DNA from: a virus
Virus record (IMG/VR): IMGVR_UViG_3300035187_000385
Coordinates: 1-25,798 of that record
Direction: 5' to 3' (one strand)
Length of the DNA: 25,798 bases
This document shows positions 8,093 to 25,731 of the stretch, piece by piece; the stretch's first letter is position 1; each line of letters opens with the position of its first letter. The position numbers and the translations under genes are program-made. Below the pieces are notes generated by a model that saw only the letters and a program-made list of their open reading frames with translations, did not search any database and was not told the origin of the DNA.

Positions 8093-8094
8093 TC

Positions 8095-8235
8095 ATGGAA
8101 TTTCTATCTCACCCTGCATTTTGGATTTGCGTTGCTGCCGCATCTGAACTGGTTGCGCTGTCGCCACTCAAAAGCAACAGCATCATTCAGTTGGTCTTTC
8201 AGATTCTGCGCCTAATCAAAGCAAAAAAGGTCTGA
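8095..8235 (+). CDS. Small membrane protein (46 aa), holin candidate, zero-frame product
   Basis: This 46-aa protein starts two bases after the previous stop. It has a hydrophobic N-terminal stretch (FLSHPAFWICVAAASELVAL, residues 3-22) and a second amphipathic segment (SIIQLVFQILRLIKAKK), a plausible two-segment miniature membrane protein or single-span holin. Its end contains the run A-AAA-AAG (8223-8229), read as GCA AAA AAG just before GTC TGA. That is the classic -1 slippery heptamer, and the -1 frame stays open to 8435. The product may therefore be made in a short and a long form. Holin function is inferred from proximity to the endolysin. Confidence 0.62.
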   Translation: MEFLSHPAFWICVAAASELVALSPLKSNSIIQLVFQILRLIKAKKV

Positions 8236-8276
8236 TTGGTTTCGGTAAACTCGGCTGGCAAAAAACACTGCCAGCC
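8223..8276 (+). promoter_or_regulatory. Possible -1 frameshift signal: slippery heptamer plus hairpin
   Basis: The heptamer AAAAAAG (8223-8229) lies in the frame required for -1 slippage (GCA AAA AAG). A perfect 8-bp hairpin follows: GGCTGGCA at 8253-8260 pairs with TGCCAGCC at 8269-8276 across an 8-base loop. The spacer from heptamer to hairpin is 23 bases, longer than the usual 5-9, so the hairpin may not be the stimulator. No T-tract follows the hairpin, so it is not a typical terminator. Confidence 0.4.
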
Positions 8277-8435
8277 AAGTTGGATAAAGCTGAAGCCGAC
8301 TGGCACGCAACGCAACCACCTGCCATGCCGCCACCAATCGTGGTCGAGCATCCAATTGACGACACCTTGCAGACTGGTAACAGTCAATTGCTCGGCGGTC
8401 CAATAAGCATCCATGCACCCTGGAAACGTGACTAA
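8229..8435 (+). CDS. Downstream -1-frame ORF, possible frameshift extension of the 46-aa membrane protein
   Basis: This frame is open from 8148 to the TAA at 8433-8435 and reads like protein: GLIGFGKLGWQKTLPAKLDK, then EADWHATQPPAMPPPIVVEH and a polar end (ISIHAPWKRD). It has no ATG until 8325, well inside the sensible sequence, and it explains a 200-base stretch with no other plausible gene. A -1 shift at 8223-8229 would join it after Lys45 of the upstream protein, giving a product of about 113 aa. Its stop overlaps the GTG of the endolysin by eight bases (GTGACTAA), the same overlap used between other real genes in this genome. Alternatives are a rare start codon (CTG 8232, ATT 8235, TTG in frame near 8280) or an assembly error in the A6 run. 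Confidence 0.45.
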   Translation, partial: GLIGFGKLGWQKTLPAKLDKAEADWHATQPPAMPPPIVVEHPIDDTLQTGNSQLLGGPISIHAPWKRD

Positions 8436-11119: not shown

Positions 11120-12019
11120 TTAGCCTAGGCCGCCGAGCGGCGTTCCATTGAGTTCTTTTCCTTTGTTCAACATGAGTTTTAGCCTTAGCAAGGCAGCGCG
11201 TTCGACCTGCTGCAGGCGCGTACCTGATACGCCAGTGGCAGTCTCTAGTTCACGCCATGACACCGGCTTTTGTAGCCTTCGATTTTTGATGACATACTTT
11301 GACCTATCGTCGAGGTACTCATCCATTAGGTCCATCATCTCTTGCGCCTGATGGCTGATACTTAGGTCGTCAAAGTCAACTGTTGATTGCGGGTCAGCGA
11401 TAAGATCAATCAACGTAACGCCATCATTGTTGATGGGTGACATATCCAAGCTGCATACCGCATAACTGCGTTGCATTGCATCATAAATTACATTGATGTC
11501 AATGCCGATGTGATTTGCCACTTCATGCAGCGTTGGGGTACGGCAGAACTGATGGCCAAGCTCTGTGTGCACCCTCGCTATTTTTGTTAGCAGGTCATGC
11601 AAGCCAGTCGGCAACCTGATCATCGAATCATTCTGCGACAAGGCGCGTTGTATACCTTGCTTAATCCACCAGTATGCGTAGGTCGAAAACTTGTAGCCGC
11701 GTGAATAATCAAACAATTCAACCGCACGCGCTAGGCCGATGTTGCCCTCTTGGATCAGGTCCATAATTTCAAGCGACTTGCGCTTGCGGTTTTCGTACTT
11801 CTTTGCTACATGCACCACAAGTTGCAGGTTGCATTGAATAAACCGCTCGCGTGCGCGTTGGCCGCTACGCACTAACCGATCTTCTGCTGCTGTTAGGTCA
11901 CGCTCTAACTGCTGTAGCTCACGCATTTTGGCAATACGTCTACCGTATTGGATCTCTTGGTCCACCGTAAGCAATGGAAACCTTGCGATCTCATTAAGGT
12001 AGTCTTTTAGTGATGACAT
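11120..12019 (-). CDS. RNA polymerase sigma-70 family factor
   Basis: This 299-aa primary-type sigma factor lacks region 1.1. Region 1.2 is at about 4-30 (LKDYLNEIARFPLLTVDQEI). Region 2 is at about 55-128, including the core-binding stretch IMDLIQEGNIGLARAVELFD and the -10 binding stretch YKFSTYAYWWIKQGI. Region 3 is at about 133-205. Region 4 is at about 230-285, with the helix-turn-helix SWRELETATGVSGTRLQQVE. Region 2 is close to cyanobacterial RpoD/group 2 factors, whereas region 4.1 and the recognition helix have drifted (the usual DVIxxRYGL and RERIRQIE texts are lost). It could therefore bind host core polymerase and a host-like -10 box but prefer a different -35. It is the penultimate gene of the leftward operon, which suits a late-gene switch. 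It is much closer to bacterial sigma-70 than T4 gp55-type factors are. Confidence 0.9.
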   Translation of the reverse strand: MSSLKDYLNEIARFPLLTVDQEIQYGRRIAKMRELQQLERDLTAAEDRLVRSGQRARERFIQCNLQLVVHVAKKYENRKRKSLEIMDLIQEGNIGLARAVELFDYSRGYKFSTYAYWWIKQGIQRALSQNDSMIRLPTGLHDLLTKIARVHTELGHQFCRTPTLHEVANHIGIDINVIYDAMQRSYAVCSLDMSPINNDGVTLIDLIADPQSTVDFDDLSISHQAQEMMDLMDEYLDDRSKYVIKNRRLQKPVSWRELETATGVSGTRLQQVERAALLRLKLMLNKGKELNGTPLGGLG

Positions 12020-13000: not shown

Positions 13001-13217
13001 TAGTTAGCTCGACGATGCGCTTACCTGGCTTCCATTTGATGTTGTATTGACTGAGTGATTGCTCTGGATCTTGAACGGTGTACCAGCGGTGGTCGCAGAA
13101 CTTACAGCGGCGACGTCTAACTAATTGCTCCGCTTCGGTATGAAAGGTGCAGACCACATAGGTGGCCCTGCCGCCACATTGGGGGCAGGGGATCTGTACG
13201 ACGCAGCCTCTAGGCAT
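12990..13217 (-). CDS. NrdR-like zinc-ribbon protein (75 aa)
   Basis: This small protein has a rubredoxin-like zinc ribbon: C11-PQ-C14-GG at one knuckle and RRRRCKFCDHRWYT with C38 and C41 at the other. The second knuckle closely matches the N-terminal zinc domain of NrdR (RRRRxCxxCxxRFTT), the repressor of ribonucleotide reductase genes. The ATP-cone domain of NrdR is absent, so it cannot be a full NrdR. The open frame extends much further upstream, but ATG 13217 is chosen because sensible sequence begins there and it gives an 8-base overlap with the upstream gene (ATGCCTAG), with GGAAGG just before it. It may bind DNA or RNA. Confidence 0.7.
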   Translation of the reverse strand: MPRGCVVQIPCPQCGGRATYVVCTFHTEAEQLVRRRRCKFCDHRWYTVQDPEQSLSQYNIKWKPGKRIVELTNDP

Positions 13218-17969: not shown

Positions 17970-19327
17970 TTGACTTTGCTCCATTGTCCTTTGGTTTGAC
18001 GGGCGGCCATGACATGCTTTGCCCATGCCACTGGGTTTTTGTACCCCCGGCTTTGGCCTAGCGCAATCAGATCCTGCAGCGATTGCGCGCCACCTTGCTC
18101 CCGCTTGGCCTGCTGCCTTTGAAGCTCCACCAACTCCCCTTCAACCTGCTGCAGCTCGCGTACCTCAGCGGCGAAGGTATGGCCGCACTCACCGCATTGC
18201 TTAGCCTGGCTGGCCATTGCAGCGAAGCACTGCGGGCACACCTTGACGCTGGGCGCTTTCTCCCGGTCACGCTTGGCTAGGCCCTCTAAGGTCCACTCAC
18301 GCGGCTCCAAGTGGTGGCCAAGCCTGAGCGTGTTGCCGACGTGATCCAACACCACTGCAGCAGCCTTGCCGGGTGATGGTCTGAGGCAGCGACCAATCAT
18401 CTGCAGGTGCAGGCTGGTGCTAGCGGTAGGCCTTAACAGGATGCAGCCGCCGACTGAGGGCACGTCAACGCCCTCACCGATGAGCGCGCAACTGGTCAGC
18501 ACCTTGAGCCGACCGGTACCTAACGCCTGCAGCAGGTCACGCCGTTGCTCGCTGGTCATGCTGCCGTCGATGCTGGCGGCTGGGATGCCAGCACTTATAA
18601 ATAGACGTGCCACCGCCCCGGCATGGGCCACTGAGCAGCAGAACGCAATTGCCGTCTGCCCTGGCAGGTGTTTGCGGTAATGCGACAGGCAGTCGCCCAT
18701 GATCGTGCCGATCCGGTGCTCAGCCTCACGGGTGTCGAAGTCACCCATCCGCTTGCGCAGGCCGATGGTGTCAAAGCCCGGTGGCGCTAGCACTCGTGCA
18801 GGCGCAAGGTAGCCGTTATCGGTCAGCCACTGCGCGCTGGGGCCTTCCACCATTGCCTGGTAATGCTCGCTAAGGCCGCGGCCATCAAGCCTGATTGGCG
18901 TTGCGGTGACGCCCAGCAGATGCGCTTGGTGGAAGTGCTCAAGCACCTTGGCCCAGGTGCCTGCATTGCTGTGGTGCGCCTCGTCGATGATCACTAACTG
19001 GAAGAAGTCACGCGGCAGTTTGTGGAGCCTGCGGGCAAGGGTTTGAACTGATGCCACCTGCACTGCTGCACTCAAATCCATGGCTCGGTTGGCGGCAATC
19101 ACACCATGAGGCATTGGCAATGCGCGGCACGCCTGGTCCAGCAGCTCCTGACGGTGCACCGCGATCAGCACGCGGTTGCCCTTTTTGGCGGCAGCCTGGG
19201 CGATGTAGCTGAAGCACACCGTTTTGCCGCCACCGGTCGGCAGCACTGCCAGTACTGTGCGCTTGCCGAGTTGGTACTGCAGGCGGATGTCGGTGATGAG
19301 CTGTTGTTGGTAGGGGCGGAGGTTCAC
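17966..19327 (-). CDS. DEAH-box superfamily 2 helicase with C-terminal zinc ribbon
   Basis: This 453-aa SF2 helicase has Walker A PTGGGKT (30-36), motif Ia (VHRQELLDQA), DEAH box (115-118), motif III TATP (141-144), and a second RecA domain with GEGVDVPSVGGCIL and the arginine-finger motif QMIGRCLRPSPG (309-320). After the helicase core comes a zinc ribbon (C364-x2-C367, C378-x2-C381) and a charged helical tail. It resembles the UvsW/RadD-like helicases of phages and bacteria that process replication forks and recombination intermediates. It starts at GTG, overlapping the preceding stop by four bases (GTGA). Confidence 0.92.
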   Translation of the reverse strand: MNLRPYQQQLITDIRLQYQLGKRTVLAVLPTGGGKTVCFSYIAQAAAKKGNRVLIAVHRQELLDQACRALPMPHGVIAANRAMDLSAAVQVASVQTLARRLHKLPRDFFQLVIIDEAHHSNAGTWAKVLEHFHQAHLLGVTATPIRLDGRGLSEHYQAMVEGPSAQWLTDNGYLAPARVLAPPGFDTIGLRKRMGDFDTREAEHRIGTIMGDCLSHYRKHLPGQTAIAFCCSVAHAGAVARLFISAGIPAASIDGSMTSEQRRDLLQALGTGRLKVLTSCALIGEGVDVPSVGGCILLRPTASTSLHLQMIGRCLRPSPGKAAAVVLDHVGNTLRLGHHLEPREWTLEGLAKRDREKAPSVKVCPQCFAAMASQAKQCGECGHTFAAEVRELQQVEGELVELQRQQAKREQGGAQSLQDLIALGQSRGYKNPVAWAKHVMAARQTKGQWSKVK

Positions 19328-21582
19328 ACCAGCTCTCCCTGCTTATGCGACTCAACCGACTGCAAATTCTTGACTGCGCAGTTGAAGTAGCTGGGCTTCA
19401 GTTCAAAGCCGACGAAGCGTCGCTGCATTTGCAGGCTGACGTAACCCTCGCTGCCGATGCCAGCGAACGGGCTGAGCACCAGATCGTCTGGATTGCTCCA
19501 TAACTGCAGGCCGCGGCGGATCACCTCAAGCTGCAGCGGGCAGATGTGGCGCTCGTCCTCATTGGCGCGGGCGCTGCGGTACTGCAGCGTGTCTGATGGG
19601 TTGATGTCCATCCACACCGGGCTGGCGTAGCGCTGCCAGATGTTGATGCTGTCTTTGATGGCGTCGCCTGTTTTGGCTGGTGGGTTCTCACCAGCAAACT
19701 CAGTGAACGGCCCTGCGCATGGCTCGGGGTTGTCGCCCAGCTTGCGCACAGTCACCAGATAGTCAGGGATGCCCTGGCGGCTCAGGGCTGAGTCCTTGCG
19801 CACTTGCTTGTGCAGCAGGCCGATCGCCTTGGTGCGCTGCATGGCCGTGACGGGATCCTTCCAGATGCAGACCTCTGAATGGAAGACAAAGCCAGCCGCC
19901 TGGAAGATGCGCAGCATGTCACCACGGAAATCCTTCACGCCGATAAAGCCATCGCGTTCTTTGCTACTGGGCAGGTTCATGCAGTGGAAGCTGATCAGCC
20001 GGCCAGGCATCAGCACGCGATGCAGCTCCTTGGCCAGGTAGACAAAGTGATCAAAGAACTCCTGATCGTTGCGGCTGTTGCCCATGTCGCGGTCGCTGTT
20101 GGAGTAGGTATACAGCGACGCAAACGGCGGACTAAAGATGCTGTAGTGGATGCTATCCGCGTCAAGTTGTTTGATGCTCTCCACGCAGTCGCCCATGTAC
20201 ATATCCCAGTTGTCGCCTGACTGGTGCTCCGTAATGTGCGGCGCAACCTGACGCTGGATCTTCTTGAGCTGTTCCATTGTTTGTTGTTTCATGATGACGA
20301 CCATTGATTCAGCCATGGCGATGCTGTCCGCTTCTTTGCGGCGGATGTTCTCGATGACGCGGCCCTCGGCCACGTCGTAGATGATGTGCGCATTAACTGG
20401 TTGCTGCTGGCCAAATCGCCAGCACCTACGGATGGCCTGATAGAAAGCCTCGTAGCTGTGGGATAGGCCAACAAACGCGACGTTGTGACAGCCCTGGAAG
20501 TTGAGGCCGAAGCCGAAGATGCTGGGCTTACTGACAAGTACGCGAATCTTGCCATCCTGAAAGTCGATCGCAGCACGGCGCTTGTGATCATCGTTGTCGC
20601 TGCCTGACACCTCGACCGCGCCATTAATGGCAGCAGTCAGCGCTTTGGACTCATCATTGAGATCACACCAGATCAGCCATTGCTCAGTGCTGTCATTGGC
20701 TAGGGCTGCGGCTGCATCGACGCGCATCTGCAGCGATGCCTTGCGGACGTGCCGCTGATCGCTCAGAGTGCGGGCTTCCATGGCGAACAGCGCCATCTGG
20801 CCAGCGTCATCGGCCATGGCCTCGCGTGGTGTCTCAACTGTGCAGTCTTGAATGGATAGCTCGGGCAGGATGAAGTTGCCGTCGTCGTAGCCCAGGTCTG
20901 ACGGCTTGCGGATGGTGACGGCCCAGCTGCAGACCCACTCCCAGAACTTGGACTGCGCGTGTCCCTTGAGCCGCCACTTACTGGTGTCGCCGCCGTCATG
21001 GACGAAGAACATGGCCAGCATCTCGGTCCTGGTCATCACGCCGATGAACTCGGCATGGTTGCCCAGCTCCATGTGATCGTTGGGTGCTGGCGTGGCTGAG
21101 CAGGCCAACCGGAATGGCGTTTGGCTGAAGCTGGAGATGATCTGGTTGCGGATCTTGCCGGTGTACGCCTTGAGGATGCTGCTCTCGTCGAGCACCACTC
21201 CATCGAATGCGGTCGGGTCGAAATGGCTGAGCTTTTCGTAGTTGGTGATCGTGATGCCGGGCTTGACCTCGGCCTGGGTTGCAGCGAACGCGCACGGAAT
21301 GCCGAACTTGCCGCCCTCGCGGACGGTCTGGTGGGCTACAGCTAGTGGTGCCAGGACCAACACGTTGCCGCCTGTGTGCTGATGCACCTGATGCGCCCAT
21401 TCAAGCTGCATAGCGGTTTTGCCCATGCCGCAATCAGCCCAGATGCAAAACCTGCCAACACGGCAGGCCATGGTCACGATGTCCCGCTGAAATGGGAACA
21501 GCGGCGCAATGAAGCTAGGCGGGTCAAATCCTGCAGGCGCGCAGGCAGTGGATTTTGAAGCTAGGAAGTCTTGGTAAGTCAT
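19324..21582 (-). CDS. SNF2-family helicase fused to a DNA methyltransferase
   Basis: This 752-aa fusion is the first gene of the leftward operon. Residues 25-430 are an SNF2-like ATPase: Walker A DCGMGKT (50-56), motif II LDES (131-134), SATP (162-165), and motifs V-VI with FGFGLNFQGC and QAIRRCWRFGQ (382-392). Residues about 455-745 are a beta-class amino-methyltransferase: catalytic SPPF (484-487) comes first and the cofactor-binding FAGIGSEG (706-713) last. No nuclease domain is seen. P1 DarB, an antirestriction protein, also combines helicase and methyltransferase parts, so protection or modification of phage DNA is plausible. A sequence resembling a clamp-binding motif, QMALF, lies at 262-266. 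N6-adenine or N4-cytosine specificity cannot be decided from sequence. Confidence 0.88.
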   Translation of the reverse strand: MTYQDFLASKSTACAPAGFDPPSFIAPLFPFQRDIVTMACRVGRFCIWADCGMGKTAMQLEWAHQVHQHTGGNVLVLAPLAVAHQTVREGGKFGIPCAFAATQAEVKPGITITNYEKLSHFDPTAFDGVVLDESSILKAYTGKIRNQIISSFSQTPFRLACSATPAPNDHMELGNHAEFIGVMTRTEMLAMFFVHDGGDTSKWRLKGHAQSKFWEWVCSWAVTIRKPSDLGYDDGNFILPELSIQDCTVETPREAMADDAGQMALFAMEARTLSDQRHVRKASLQMRVDAAAALANDSTEQWLIWCDLNDESKALTAAINGAVEVSGSDNDDHKRRAAIDFQDGKIRVLVSKPSIFGFGLNFQGCHNVAFVGLSHSYEAFYQAIRRCWRFGQQQPVNAHIIYDVAEGRVIENIRRKEADSIAMAESMVVIMKQQTMEQLKKIQRQVAPHITEHQSGDNWDMYMGDCVESIKQLDADSIHYSIFSPPFASLYTYSNSDRDMGNSRNDQEFFDHFVYLAKELHRVLMPGRLISFHCMNLPSSKERDGFIGVKDFRGDMLRIFQAAGFVFHSEVCIWKDPVTAMQRTKAIGLLHKQVRKDSALSRQGIPDYLVTVRKLGDNPEPCAGPFTEFAGENPPAKTGDAIKDSINIWQRYASPVWMDINPSDTLQYRSARANEDERHICPLQLEVIRRGLQLWSNPDDLVLSPFAGIGSEGYVSLQMQRRFVGFELKPSYFNCAVKNLQSVESHKQGELV

Positions 21583-21648
21583 AGGCCGTGTCAGGCCTTG
21601 CCAGCGTAGCAGCCGCTGCTACAGTGTGCAAGCACCTAGCCCAGCACC
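21583..21648. promoter_or_regulatory. Divergent promoter/operator region with 17-bp inverted repeat
   Basis: This 66-base gap separates the leftward helicase-methyltransferase gene from the rightward RHH-primase genes, so it must hold or adjoin both early promoters. It contains an inverted repeat, GTAGCAGC (21606-21613), one centre base, GCTGCTAC (21615-21622), with perfect 8-base arms. On the minus strand a weak promoter-like pair (TTGCAC, 17 bases, TACGCT) straddles the repeat; this is a poor match and only suggestive. Confidence 0.5.
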
Positions 21649-21810
21649 GTGCGCCTGAGCCACCCAACCCATATACGTCTAACCGCCGACCAGATGCAGC
21701 GCCTTGACTCCTGGCGTGGTGACCGCATGAATCGTGCTACGGCCATCCGCCTGCTACTGGATCAATCGCTGCGGTTGCATCTGGACGGCATCTTGCCAGC
21801 AACCAAATGA
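21649..21810 (+). CDS. Small ribbon-helix-helix regulator (53 aa), GTG start
   Basis: A short gene starting at GTG 21649 reads VRLSHPTHIRLTADQMQRLD, then SWRGDRMNRATAIRLLLDQS and an end of LRLHLDGILPATK. This has ribbon-helix-helix (CopG/Arc/MetJ-like) form: a short basic strand HIRLTADQ, helix 1 MQRLDSWRG, turn with MNRA, helix 2 TAIRLLLDQSLRLHL. The stop overlaps the primase ATG by four bases (ATGA). It sits 27 bases from the inverted repeat in the divergent promoter region, the expected place for an autoregulatory repressor. No clear ribosome site is seen. ATG 21694 is an alternative start but would delete the DNA-binding strand. Confidence 0.62.
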   Translation: MRLSHPTHIRLTADQMQRLDSWRGDRMNRATAIRLLLDQSLRLHLDGILPATK

Positions 21811-23873
21811 CGACTCTTGACGAACTAGCCCGTCTGCCTGACGGGTGGGGTTTTGTTGCGGTTGATGGTGAGAAGCGCCCATACCAACCCGAATGGCAGA
21901 AGAAGCCCCTATCCAAAGCCAAGCTGGCGGCTGAATTAAAAGCCGGTCGCGCCCGTGCTATCGGCGTCTGCTGCGGCGTGCCATCAGGTGGTTTGCTGTT
22001 CCTTGACCACGACGGCAAGTCAGCCAGCACCATCCTCCGCGACTGGGGGTGCCCCATGTCGTCATTGCCGCGTAGCTGGACCGTTACCTCAGGCCGCGAC
22101 GGCAGGTTTCAGGTCATCTACCAAGTACCGGAGCACTACTGGGATGGCATCGCCACACGCAAATACAAAACCGGCGTTACCGATGCCGAAGGCAAGCCCG
22201 AGCAAGTTGAACTTCGCTGGACCGGCTGCCAATCCGTCGTAGCAGGTGACCACCCACTCACGCCTGGTTACCGCTGGGTCCGTGGTTACGCTCCTGGCGA
22301 CCTGCCAATTGCCGAGGCGCCGCCCGAACTACTGGAGCGGATGCTTAAACCCGTACCTGCTGCAGTGGTAACACCAGAGCCGCGTGCTGCTGCTGGCAGT
22401 GATGACACCACTAGGGCACGTTCATACCTCGACGCATTGGACGCCGCTAGGGCTGATGACTACGACGACTGGTTGGCCGTTGGCATGGCGCTCCATAGCC
22501 TCGGTGATGACACGCTCTTAGATGACTGGGAACAGTGGTCAGCGCAGTCCGGTAAGCACAAGCCCAGTGACTGTCAGCGCAAATGGCGCAGTTTTAAGAA
22601 GTCCGGCATCACCCTTGGCACCCTTGGCGATATGGCCAAGAAAGACGGCTGGCGTAGTTCCGCTGTTGTCAAGCGCGTTGTGGGTGGCAGAAGCGGTGGC
22701 AATCCGGAGGCTGATACCCCGCCGATCATCACAAAACCCGAGAAGCTTGAAACCGCAGAGCTGCTGGCATTTCTCCGCAGCAAATGCGATGACATCCGCT
22801 ACAACACCTTTACCCAGCAAATCGAAATCAAAGAGCAAGTCGTAGAAGGCGCCGACCGTTTCTACCTCAAGCTGGCGGAGATGGGCTACAAGGTGAGCAA
22901 GGAACTTGCAATCGACTGCCTTGTGCAGGTAGCTAACGAAAACCCATATGACCCCGTCCGCGAATACCTCGAATGGTGCGCTAATACCACTGAACCCGCA
23001 TACATCGACCGACTATCAACCGCATACCTGCGCCCTAGCGATGAGGGCCATCCAGAGCCCACCATCTACGACGAGATGCTAAAGCGCACCCTCATCGGTG
23101 CTGTGGCGCGTGCCTTTAATCCCGGCTGCAAGCATGACACCGCTTGCGTCATCATGGGCGATCAAGGCGCATACAAATCCAGCTTTTGGCAGTGCCTCGG
23201 TGGTCCATTCTTTAGTGATGCGCTTGGTGACATCACAACCAAAGATGACATCATGGTGCTACACCGCTCATGGATGATGGAATGGGCCGAGCTAGACCAC
23301 ATCACCAATCGCAAGCACGCCGGACAAGTCAAGGCGTTCTTATCCCAAGCGGTAGACCTACTCCGCGTGCCCTACGGCAAAGCTGTTGAATCATTCCCTC
23401 GCCGTGGCATCATCGTCGGTACAACTAACAAAACCGCAGGCTTTTTGGTTGATGAAACTGGTAACCGCCGCTTCTGGGTTATCCCTACCACCAAGACGCA
23501 GCAGGACCAAATCAATACCGCTGCACTATTGCTAGAGCGCGATGCCATATGGGCTGCTGCTGTCAAGATGTACCGCGACGGTGAGTCCAGTCGCTTACCC
23601 GCTGCGATGGAAAATCGCATTACCGAAGAGAACAACACCTACCTAATCGACTCCCCATGGCGTAGTCCCATCATTGAATATCTTGACCGCCGAGCAAAGG
23701 TCGAACTGCTTACATCTGAGGAGATATTGGAATATGCAATCAAGAAGCCGCTAGAGCGTCAAAGCCGCGCCGACCAGATGCAGGTTGCCTCGATTCTCAA
23801 AGATCTTGGGTGGGTCAAGAAACGAGAGGCGACAGGACGCAGGAGGTGGCATTATTGCAGGTCAGACGGTTAG
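21807..23873 (+). CDS. Bifunctional primase-polymerase / VirE-type helicase
   Basis: This 688-aa replication protein has three parts. Residues 1-175 are a primase-polymerase domain: metal-binding D67-H-D69 in LLFLDHDGK, and SGRDGRFQVIYQVP (95-108). Residues about 203-282 are a PriCT-2-like domain (SYLDALDAARADDYDDWLAV, W-S-x-S-x-K-x6-C-x3-W). Residues about 380-600 are a VirE/DUF5906-type AAA+ ATPase: P-loop GDQGAYKSS (451-459), Walker B-like WMMEWAEL (489-496), GIIVGTTNK (534-542) and TGNRRFW (551-557). The P-loop has Tyr where Gly normally precedes the Lys. It would prime and unwind at the phage origin. A winged-helix-like end follows. It is the main rightward early gene, next to the repeat-rich region at 23858-24075. 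Confidence 0.9.
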   Translation: MTTLDELARLPDGWGFVAVDGEKRPYQPEWQKKPLSKAKLAAELKAGRARAIGVCCGVPSGGLLFLDHDGKSASTILRDWGCPMSSLPRSWTVTSGRDGRFQVIYQVPEHYWDGIATRKYKTGVTDAEGKPEQVELRWTGCQSVVAGDHPLTPGYRWVRGYAPGDLPIAEAPPELLERMLKPVPAAVVTPEPRAAAGSDDTTRARSYLDALDAARADDYDDWLAVGMALHSLGDDTLLDDWEQWSAQSGKHKPSDCQRKWRSFKKSGITLGTLGDMAKKDGWRSSAVVKRVVGGRSGGNPEADTPPIITKPEKLETAELLAFLRSKCDDIRYNTFTQQIEIKEQVVEGADRFYLKLAEMGYKVSKELAIDCLVQVANENPYDPVREYLEWCANTTEPAYIDRLSTAYLRPSDEGHPEPTIYDEMLKRTLIGAVARAFNPGCKHDTACVIMGDQGAYKSSFWQCLGGPFFSDALGDITTKDDIMVLHRSWMMEWAELDHITNRKHAGQVKAFLSQAVDLLRVPYGKAVESFPRRGIIVGTTNKTAGFLVDETGNRRFWVIPTTKTQQDQINTAALLLERDAIWAAAVKMYRDGESSRLPAAMENRITEENNTYLIDSPWRSPIIEYLDRRAKVELLTSEEILEYAIKKPLERQSRADQMQVASILKDLGWVKKREATGRRRWHYCRSDG

Positions 23874-24075
23874 ACGGCAGTCAGGCACTGGGTTTTTGCC
23901 GTCCTAACCTCCCAACCCGACCGACCTACCTAGAAGAGTTTCCCTAACCCCCCTCCTCCCCCCCCTTTTACTTATTCTTCTTAAGAGGTTAGGTTGGTTA
24001 GACGGTTAGGTAAAGCCAGTCCACGACAGGCGTCTAACCGTCCAAACCTCCGAAAACAGGTCAGACGGCTACAAA
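23858..24075. repeat. Non-coding repeat-rich region, candidate replication origin
   Basis: The longest non-coding stretch in the window (23874-24075) has no gene in any frame. The hexamer GGTTAG or its complement occurs seven times: plus at 23868, 23987, 23996 and 24004, minus at 23904, 23944 and 24034. The longer unit GACGGTTAG(AC) is at 23865-23875, 24001-24009 and, inverted, 24032-24042. A 12-base exact direct repeat CAGGTCAGACGG marks both edges (23858-23869 and 24057-24068). A pure pyrimidine run (23948-23969) passes into an A/T-rich patch (23966-23984, 16 of 19 A/T). Iterons, hairpins and an easily melted patch next to the primase-helicase gene resemble a replication origin; a transcription control region is the alternative. 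Confidence 0.55.
23868..23909 (+). other. Large imperfect hairpin at the primase gene stop
   Basis: GGTTAGACGGCA (23868-23879) can pair with TGCCGTCCTAACC (23897-23909), giving 12 base pairs with one bulged base and a 17-base loop. The left arm contains the TAG stop of the primase. No T-run follows, so it is a poor intrinsic terminator. It uses the same GGTTAG/GACGG units as the wider repeat region. Confidence 0.55.
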
Positions 24076-24360
24076 ATGCAAGAAATCAAGGTCCGATTTA
24101 ACCCCGAAGACATCCAACACCTAGAACGCCAAGCTGCTGCCGCTGGAACCAGCCGCGCTGCCCTCATTCGTGACAGAGCGTTAAGCCTCCCTGTTGCACG
24201 GTTGACCACGGTGGAGTACCATGCGCTCGTGGCTGATGCCGCCGCCTTCATGCGCGGCGATTTGCCCAAGCTGCAAGTTGAAACACTCACCGCTTATGTC
24301 ATCACCCGACTTGATCAACATCAACGCCAAGCAGACGCCAGTCATCAATCGACTTCATGA
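24076..24360 (+). CDS. Ribbon-helix-helix DNA-binding protein (94 aa)
   Basis: The N terminus IKVRFNPEDIQHLERQAAAA followed by GTSRAALIRDRAL is a clear ribbon-helix-helix unit: strand IKVRFNPED, helix 1 IQHLERQAAAAG, helix 2 SRAALIRDRALS. This MobC/CopG-like pattern binds DNA as a dimer. The C-terminal half is helical (VEYHALVADAAAFMRGDL, LTAYVITRLDQH) and may form the oligomer. It lies immediately right of the repeat-rich region and is a natural candidate to bind it. The final 65 bases overlap the next gene if that starts at 24296. Confidence 0.75.
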   Translation: MQEIKVRFNPEDIQHLERQAAAAGTSRAALIRDRALSLPVARLTTVEYHALVADAAAFMRGDLPKLQVETLTAYVITRLDQHQRQADASHQSTS

Positions 24361-24508: not shown

Positions 24509-24716
24509 TCCGGTTAATCACCCTGATCACTACACCGCCGGCAGCATCGAATGCATCGATGCCATCCAAGCTGCGCTAACCCCTGAGCAGTTCATCGGCT
24601 ACTGCCGTGGCAATGCCATCAAATACATCTGGCGCACCGACCGCAAAGGCGGCATCCAAGACCTTCAAAAAGCAATCTGGTATCTCAACCGTGCAATTCA
24701 CAACCTGTCAATTTGA
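24501..24716 (+). CDS. DUF3310 family protein (71 aa)
   Basis: From GTG 24501 the protein reads VSDPVNHPDHYTAGSIECID, then LTPEQFIGYCRGNAIKYIWR and KGGIQDLQKAIWYLNRAIHN. This is the DUF3310 (SaV-like) signature: HPxHY, IECID, F..GYCRGN..KYiwR, K.G...DL.KA.WYL.r. The family is widespread in phages and often labelled nucleotide kinase-like, though activity is unproven to my knowledge. The gene is short and complete. GTG is chosen because no ATG lies nearby and it makes the eight-base overlap with the previous stop. The 3' end overlaps the clamp gene by 26 bases. Confidence 0.85.
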   Translation: MSDPVNHPDHYTAGSIECIDAIQAALTPEQFIGYCRGNAIKYIWRTDRKGGIQDLQKAIWYLNRAIHNLSI

Positions 24717-25731
24717 CCTTGACAACGCCTTGCGTACCATCGCGCCAGCAATTGGCGTTCGCAGCAGTCACCCAATCCTTGACTGCTGTCTGATTACCGC
24801 CACCAACGGCACCATGTCCGTTACCGGCTTCAACCTAGACCTCGGCATCACCGTTACCGCACCAGCAGTGGTCGAAACCGCTGGCACCATCGCATTGCCG
24901 TATCGGCTCCTAGCGGGCCTTGTAAGCCGCATTGAGGCCGATGAGGCTGTAACGCTGCACGATGGCGGCCTGGCGGCTTCTGGCGGCTCCTACGGCCTTG
25001 CAGGGCAGGATGCAGCGGATTACCCCGCAATGCCTGCTGTAGAGGCTCCTAGCGCTGAGCTAGCGCTATCGGCTGGTGTACGCGCTTGCATGACCGCTGC
25101 CAGCACCGACGCAAGCAAGGCACTGCTGCAGGGCATTCACCTCGCCAACGGCTATATGGAGGCAACCGACGGTCATCGCCTTATGCGGTACGCCGTTGAC
25201 CTGCCCGATGGCATCGACCTTGTGCTACCCGCTAGCACCATGCGGCTGCTGCAGGACCACACCGTCACCATCGCTCACGCCGGTGGTCAAGCTGTCATCA
25301 CCACCGACGATGGCATCACCATCTACAGCCGCATCATTGACGGCACCTATCCCGACGTAACCAAGCTCATCCCCCCAGACTTCAAGCACACCATCACCCT
25401 TGACCGGCACCGCTTCACTCGTGCTCTAGAGCGTGTGGCACTCATCGCTGAAGCTCACAATTCCGTCGTCAAAGTGGAAGCCGTAGGCGGTACTATCGCC
25501 ATCACCGCTGAAGCCGATGCCAACAACGGCAAGGAGCTTCTAGCCGTTGAAGGCATCGGCAAAGGAGTTTGGGCATTCAACGTCCATTACCTCCTAGACG
25601 GCCTCAAGGCTTTTAAGGGGCATGACGCCGTTACGCTGTCAGCCAATGCGGCAACCACTCCCGTGGTATTTACGCCTGCCGGCGTAGATGGTGTAACGTA
25701 TCTTGTAATGCCTGTGCAAATTCGCACTTAA
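24691..25731 (+). CDS. dnaN: DNA polymerase III beta sliding clamp (DnaN family)
   Basis: This 346-aa sliding clamp is slightly shorter than the bacterial protein (about 366). From GTG 24691 it begins VQFTTCQFDLDNALRTIAPA, matching the bacterial start. HPILDCCLITATNGTMSVTG and FNLDLGITV are domain-1 landmarks. LLQGIHLANGYMEATDGHRL and MRYAVDLP belong to domain 2 ('ATDGHRL' is the DnaN signature). FKHTITLDRHRFTRALERVA opens domain 3, and the end GVTYLVMPVQIRT corresponds to the bacterial 'xYvvMPMrL'. Clamps tether the polymerase to DNA and bind partners through short QLxLF motifs. An upstream ATG frame overlaps DUF3310 and is not used. No polymerase is encoded in the window. Confidence 0.93.
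   Translation: MQFTTCQFDLDNALRTIAPAIGVRSSHPILDCCLITATNGTMSVTGFNLDLGITVTAPAVVETAGTIALPYRLLAGLVSRIEADEAVTLHDGGLAASGGSYGLAGQDAADYPAMPAVEAPSAELALSAGVRACMTAASTDASKALLQGIHLANGYMEATDGHRLMRYAVDLPDGIDLVLPASTMRLLQDHTVTIAHAGGQAVITTDDGITIYSRIIDGTYPDVTKLIPPDFKHTITLDRHRFTRALERVALIAEAHNSVVKVEAVGGTIAITAEADANNGKELLAVEGIGKGVWAFNVHYLLDGLKAFKGHDAVTLSANAATTPVVFTPAGVDGVTYLVMPVQIRT

Follow-up and report, generated by a model that had tools for sequence, protein, structure and literature searches.

The stretch analysed here, hereafter the window, is the whole of the 25,798-nucleotide virus record IMGVR_UViG_3300035187_000385, a 25.8-kb sequence carrying tail and endolysin genes. Its gene for a primase-helicase of 688 aa (21807-23873, plus strand), referred to below as the initiator, is separated from the gene for a ribbon-helix-helix (RHH), NikA-like protein (24076-24360, plus strand) by a gap rich in short repeats. 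We propose, with a probability of roughly 0.83, that this gap is the replication origin of the phage: the repeats would be iterons bound by the C-terminal domain of the initiator encoded immediately upstream, initiator and origin would be exchanged as a single cassette, and the whole would work like the rep-ori replicons of Staphylococcus aureus pathogenicity islands (SaPIs) and other phage-inducible chromosomal islands (PICIs). As judged from aligned loci of related viruses, the repeat sequence tracks the upstream initiator and hardly the RHH protein, and phages that are otherwise alike have had initiator and gap replaced as one unit, so that related viruses appear to exchange the start site of replication along with the matching starter protein. 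An origin had already been suggested in the initial annotation of the window, and the comparison backs it, since the gap and its opposed repeat sets recur and the repeats change with the initiator; this support is comparative in kind.

The repeats track the initiator

Loci were collected with the primase (80, the best 80 of 115, a set leaning to close relatives) and with the RHH protein (26, partly overlapping the primase set). A gap of 193-258 nt was found between the primase-helicase and RHH genes in all 82 loci holding both, which represent 64 distinct sequences with flanks; removal of 6 loci with short proteins and 17 with identical gaps left 59, or 60 with the window. Nine loci encoded an RHH protein 53-87% identical to that of the window with a different initiator upstream, and the top repeats differed from those of the window in 9/9. 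According to their Pfam matches, the initiators belong to three families, namely VapE/PriCT_2 (type 1, as in the window), D5_N/DUF5906 (type 2) and Zn_Ribbon_Prim with weak Toprim matches (type 3; the partial protein of L101 had no such match, yet is 67-74% identical to other type-3 proteins), between which blastp detected no similarity. Scans with the type-2 and type-3 initiators yielded 108 further loci, of which 104 were usable, 4 being without gap sequence; dropped from the covariation analysis were 20 without an RHH match beside the gap, 22 with identical gaps and 2 short ones, and L094 and L095 were left out as near copies of L092. The resulting covariation set comprised 127 loci with distinct gaps (60, 38 and 29 of types 1-3), and the correlations reported below are rank correlations of distances.

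Over the 127 loci, the repeated hexamers correlated with the initiator at rho 0.709 and with the RHH protein at 0.216, with partial correlations of 0.692 for the initiator given RHH and 0.035 for RHH given the initiator. In a set of 67 loci the corresponding values were 0.786 and 0.396, with partials of 0.740 (0/500 permutations) and -0.027 (353/500). Eleven locus pairs, each consisting of a type-1 and a type-2 locus, have RHH proteins at BLAST distance 0, letter-identical in ten of them, and in these ten pairs the shared repeated hexamers amount to 0.00-0.05. Loci L070, L073, L074 and L077 keep the repeats with no detectable RHH homologue. Finally, the natural recombinant L048 combines an initiator near that of L023 (distance 0.05) with an RHH protein near that of L012 (0.07), and the similarity of its repeats is 0.47 to L023 and 0.09 to L012. 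The ten identical pairs and the partial of 0.035 thus speak against the role at the origin that the initial annotation had considered for the RHH protein. A small open reading frame (ORF) upstream of the initiator was also considered as the repeat binder and was rejected (rho 0.078 over 113 loci, partial -0.044).

The type-2 and type-3 initiators, too, are directly followed by repeat-bearing stretches. Repeats of the TTGCGTCC family are present in 55 of the 63 type-2 loci (the eight outside this family are L173-L177, L181, L189 and L192), and those of type 3 read TGTTACG, CGTTAGG, CGTTCGG, TGTAACG or near variants.

The boundaries of the exchanged DNA were traced in eight chosen pairs, in all of which the right-hand homology sets in again 1-3 nt ahead of the ATG of the RHH gene, at 87-96% identity. 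In the pair L060/L141, identity is 93.3% across 2051 nt of left flank and 94.1% across 2182 nt of right flank, the left homology ending 3 nt past the start codon of a divergent helicase-methyltransferase gene; in L031/L135, it stops exactly at the start codon of the divergent gene in L135. The exchanged block in these two pairs comprises the small ORF, the initiator and the iteron gap, lying between two start codons, whereas in the other six of the eight pairs the left homology ended elsewhere, was short or was missing from the available sequence. A recombination hotspot had been one of the alternatives initially offered; recombination does occur, yet on the right it is bounded by the RHH start codon and not by the 12-bp repeats at the gap edges. 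We put forward only tentatively that one replication locus is a plug-in socket for at least three dissimilar primase-helicase/iteron-origin cassettes, with a polymorphism possibly under selection. Selection could maintain such polymorphism because a phage with a shared origin type lies open to coinfecting phages, to satellites, to origin decoys or to origin-directed nucleases.

Within the initiator, the segment of aa 619-688 (23661-23870, plus strand), a predicted winged helix, is proposed as the iteron-binding domain. Among the 60 type-1 loci, this segment was the best predictor of the repeats (rho 0.801), the other segments reaching 0.521-0.613 and the RHH protein 0.578; by another distance measure, the last 95 aa gave 0.740 versus 0.651 for the helicase segment, and in type 3 the respective values were 0.755 and 0.584. 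AlphaFold2, run on 48 relatives, modelled residues 619-688 as helices with a two-stranded wing, at a predicted local distance difference test (pLDDT) score by ten-residue block of 81-93 up to the first wing strand and of 75-76 at the end; the model of the full-length initiator had a mean pLDDT of 61.3 and was set aside. The fold of the P4 origin-binding domain was not among the matches listed for the C-terminal domain (50 per fold search).

Layout and conservation of the gap

The proposed origin region (23858-24075, plus strand) consists of the 202-nt intergenic gap proper (23874-24075) and the last 16 bases of the initiator gene (23858-23873), which had at first been counted as non-coding. 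Nor is it the only long non-coding gap, as had been stated: with the ORF choice made, 8093-8412 (320 nt), 21583-21806 (224 nt, holding a small ORF) and 13001-13209 (209 nt) are longer. GGTTAG occurs seven times inside 172 bases (23868+, 23904-, 23944-, 23987+, 23996+, 24004+ and 24034-), and the claim that this exceeds chance held: in dinucleotide shuffles of the 218-base stretch, the best hexamer averaged 2.69 copies and none of 200 shuffles reached seven, nor does any other hexamer reach this number in any 175-base stretch of the window (the next-densest, GCCACC, has 6 copies). The whole window contains 15 copies of GGTTAG, compared with 6.97 +/- 2.83 in shuffles, and 7 of the 15 fall in 23858-24075. 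The other sequence features noted initially were all found as described, namely the unit GACGGTTAG(AC) twice forward (23865 and 24001) and once inverted (24032-24042), the inverted-repeat pairs I1 and I2, the 12-mer CAGGTCAGACGG exact at both 23858 and 24057, and the C-rich run passing into an A/T-rich patch. The flanking 12-mers are two members of the repeat family, and in close relatives such as L003, L006 and L007 GGTTAG replaces GGTCAG in the right copy.

From left to right, the outer iterons GGTCAGACGGTTAGACGGC (23860-23878, plus strand) overlap the initiator stop codon and are followed by a left inner set (23900-23931, minus-strand reading) formed by CTAACC and the look-alikes CAACC, CGACC and CTACC. 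The centre is occupied by a 22-nt pyrimidine tract (23948-23969, plus strand; opposite strand G-rich), the longest in the window, where the next has 12 nt, and by an A+T-rich patch (23965-23984), a candidate opening site, whose 20-mer with 4 G+C is one of 28 among 25,779 in the window with no more than this number. Beyond it lie the right inner set GAGGTTAGGTTGGTTAGACGGTTAGGT (23985-24011, plus strand; 8-9 nt spacing), the right outer inverted iterons CGTCTAACCGTCCAAACCTC that form pair I2 (24031-24050, minus strand) and a last copy, CAGGTCAGACGGCTA (24057-24071, plus strand), ahead of the RHH gene. An outer dyad, pair I1 (23865-24042, with arms 23865-23895 and 24012-24042), could form a single large stem-loop, with a DNA fold of -37.9 kcal/mol (z -3.98; 0/200 shuffles equally stable). 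The window shows a partly C-rich centre and a mixed orientation of its outer iteron copies. One of the two G-quadruplex (G4)-type motifs of the window is located at the gap centre (23942-23965, minus strand), and short hairpin pieces resembling CCAGT...ACTGG (window 23880-23897 and 24015-24030) recur, by eye, across gaps of different initiator families.

In relatives, the gap and its opposed repeat sets recur, though the hexamer letters vary by lineage. In 26 of 32 gap stretches, comprising the window and relatives from the three initiator families with three near copies, the top hexamer was reached by none of 200 shuffles; in the remaining six it was reached by 1 (L034), 2 (L047), 5 (L032), 7 (L033), 7 (L053) and 81 (L040) of 200. 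The hexamer itself is not conserved, and TAGGAC, TTGGACG or TAGGGCA replace GGTTAG in whole lineages. The left and right sets change together, columns 66 and 163 pairing as TA in 8 and as CG in 8 of 16 sequences, and such concerted change among the copies of a motif suggests that a single protein reads them all. Opposed iteron sets on the two sides of the centre are clearest in type 2, L069/L072, L092, L100, L102 and the isolate S-LBS1, which has three tandem copies one way and four the other, 9 nt apart; neighbouring copies are 8-9 nt apart in the window and farther apart in type 2. The end of the S-LBS1 record (L104, ~34,237-34,641) repeats its own iteron region by eye, the iteron spacing recurring at offset 254; this is probably an assembly loop, apparently formed by short reads within the iterons, and the S-LBS1 origin would then be broken at the record end.

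The centre of the gap is also recognizable across relatives, the most A+T-rich 20-mer having a median relative place of 0.49 in type-1 gaps and 0.49-0.60 across gaps. The longest run is of plus-strand pyrimidines in 60/60 type-1 gaps, with a median of 20 nt (range 6-30) versus 10 in shuffles, and a long central pyrimidine run is weak or not seen in types 2 and 3; G4-type motifs were found in 28/60 type-1 gaps versus 9% of shuffles, and in 0/67 type-2 and type-3 gaps. Of 26 gaps, 23 have a stem-loop fold with z below -2, compared with -0.48 to -1.14 in three control gaps, but the fold was rejected as a constant feature, being not kept in L012, L032 and L053 (z -1.31, 0.14 and -1.72). RNAalifold returned 16 pairs for 16 gaps, 8 of them with changes on both sides, for which the opposed iterons account equally well.

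With this layout, the initiator would use its C-terminal domain to bind the iterons that directly follow its gene, probably in the form of two oligomers seated on the opposed sets. The A+T-rich centre would be opened by its helicase, and its primase part would make primers, for which the C-rich strand could be the template, and replication would go on with a polymerase and the phage-encoded sliding clamp.

The initiator has Pfam matches to PriCT_2 (204-277; PF08707, 78.2 bits) and a VapE-like helicase (414-612; PF05272, 210.5 bits), its PHROG matches are primases and helicases, and its VapE domain matches PDB 7pds, 'Similar to D. nodosus vapE' (E 4.3e-25). Right of the gap follow the RHH/NikA-like gene (PF21983, 31.6 bits; cut-off 27), which is outside the exchanged cassette, a small ORF, a DUF3310 ORF and a DnaN-type sliding clamp (24607-25731). 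On the left, the uncalled small ORF of 53 aa from GTG (21649-21810, plus strand), the stop of which overlaps the initiator ATG, is RHH/CopG-like by eye only and gave no match in a Pfam search; homologues are present in 113/127 loci, ahead of all three initiator families. The divergent gene (19324-21582) is matched by helicase PHROGs along the greater part of its sequence and by methyltransferase PHROGs in the C-terminal region. Using the right-hand 5.8 kb, the nearest named relatives are the Synechococcus phages S-CBS3 and S-LBS1, and the 10 records matched are each 60-80% identical over 2-27% of the query. Genomes of relatives are ~40 kb, and the window covers part of such a genome. S-CBS3 has a different, RepA-type helicase, and at its locus (L103) none of the five window proteins tested gave a match. 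The window also encodes an RNA polymerase sigma factor (11120-12019; phrog_351), and an S-CBS3 gene is annotated as a group 2 sigma factor.

Weighing the alternatives

Several observations weigh against an origin read by the C-terminal domain of the initiator. The cumulative GC skew of six long contigs (17 regions; G015 minus its last 32 bases) has no consistent extremum at the gap, and this check, named in the initial annotation, neither helps nor refutes. The correlations do not take common descent into account, and physical linkage ties the gap to the C-terminal codons, though it is equally near the RHH gene. Type-2 repeats correlate better with the helicase segment (0.743) than with the C-terminal 95 aa (0.661). 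The RHH partials within types 1, 2 and 3 are 0.014, 0.161 and 0.299, the latter two being adverse, and in the type-1 loci a value of 0.258 persists for RHH once the winged helix is controlled for. The winged helix is a predicted model with generic fold matches only (best Z 6.6, MepR; Foldseek best E 0.044). In the distant relatives L122 and L123 (54% identity), from metagenome-assembled genomes, no clear hexamer family was seen in the 420 nt downstream, by a count without shuffles; a further such locus, L124, has GTTGGAA four times by the same kind of count, and the L125 match spans 63 residues only.

The alternative that survives best, albeit an unlikely one, is that the initiator binds the iterons for copy control, incompatibility or autoregulation while replication starts elsewhere; the control region of P4 is a parallel for such a site. 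All the covariation data are also compatible with it, and the skew gives no independent start point. However, the gap holds the sole dense cluster of this repeat in the window, though the latter is part of a ~40-kb genome, the arrangement of opposed sets about an A+T/pyrimidine centre agrees with an opening site, and the PICI and SCCmec precedents put the origin at this very place.

It is very unlikely that the RHH protein (24076-24360) uses the repeats as operator or centromere sites to control its own operon or segregation. A spacing of 8-9 nt and a position just upstream of an RHH gene would suit RHH operators, and the repeats of the window have both; the NikA-like match and the weak partials in types 2 and 3 also suit this explanation. 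It is at odds with the letter-identical RHH proteins beside unrelated repeats, with partials of RHH given the initiator that are close to zero in both locus sets and with the four loci that keep the repeats next to no detectable RHH homologue.

Highly improbable, too, is a transcribed regulatory element, be it a terminator, a leader structure or a promoter region between co-directional genes. The RNA fold of the gap (z -3.74) and its tight fit between two same-strand genes are as expected for such an element, and a promoter for the RHH-clamp genes may sit in the gap, but a scan of 23700-24200 returned neither a sigma-70-type promoter nor a plus-strand terminator-like site, no Rfam family matched at gathering score, the fold is lost in three relatives and the repeats follow the initiator family. 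The same scan returned one minus-strand terminator-like site (0.7 expected), and the one sub-threshold Rfam match, to a miRNA, was judged a chance hit. Least credible is a packaging site, insertion scar or site-specific recombination site, which would explain the exact 12-bp repeats at both edges and the coincidence of the right gap edge with the module exchange boundary, but the gap is present in 82/82 loci with both genes, contrary to the past insertion initially envisaged, the 12-mers are just two ordinary copies from the repeat family, and the S-LBS1 paper predicts the terminus at 25,643, away from the iterons after the primase end at 34,236.

Relation to known replicons

For a group of aquatic phages, whose hosts are probably cyanobacteria, the gap and the gene preceding it are concrete candidates for origin and initiator. 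The S-LBS1 paper contains no mention of 'origin of replication', 'repeat' or 'iteron', and a literature search on cyanophages and iterons surfaced only the Vibrio cholerae satellite work discussed below, which is weak evidence of absence given the thin coverage of subscription papers. The 127 distinct gaps, each paired with an initiator domain, are a large natural collection in which the code of iteron recognition could be deciphered.

The closest parallel is with SaPI Rep helicases, the C-terminal domain of which recognises iterons directly downstream of their own gene, and the isolated C-terminal domain of Cch2 binds its putative origin (PMC7581432). In PICIs, the origin directly follows the 3' end of rep and has two iteron sets around an A+T-rich region (PMC6092414). 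The window shares both the position of the candidate origin directly 3' of the initiator gene, as do all 82 type-1 loci, and the arrangement of short iterons in two sets with an A+T-rich stretch between them, and the 7pds match of its VapE domain is a further point of likeness. A specificity set by the C-terminal domain, as in Rep, fits the covariation in types 1 and 3, while type 2 favours the helicase segment. Unlike the SaPI/PICI satellites, the window carries tail and endolysin genes, arguing for a phage, and has a fused primase and helicase, a central pyrimidine/G4-type tract and the RHH-clamp gene set on the right; the origin layout known from PICI satellites would extend to phages with tail and lysis genes.

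In plasmid pRN1, the likely origin lies behind a primase-helicase-winged-helix gene, and pRN1 and phage BIP-1 resemble the window in the fused primase, SF3-type helicase and C-terminal winged helix (predicted here) and in an origin just 3' of the gene with a large dyad (PMC4234260). A small regulator gene precedes the initiator in both pRN1 (orf56) and the window (the small ORF 21649-21810), but pRN1 is reported to be without iterons and to need the stem-loop itself, whereas here the iterons are constant and the fold is not kept in 3/26 gaps. P4 alpha is likewise a primase-helicase whose winged-helix domain binds origin repeats (PMC4234260), a likeness to the window that resides in the predicted winged helix, although its primase is of the TOPRIM type, unlike that of the window.

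For the exchange itself, the nearest precedent is that of the phage-inducible chromosomal island-like elements (PLEs), satellites in Vibrio cholerae, in which the DNA-binding domain of the initiator RepA and the origin iterons covary and are swapped as a module (PMC8263062), much as appears to be the case in the group of the window. The PLEs differ in having a RepA_N initiator and longer iterons, whereas here three dissimilar primase-helicase families are exchanged at one locus. Lambdoid phages are another case of initiator-origin module exchange; less usual is that three unrelated initiator families appear to share one socket in otherwise similar phages.

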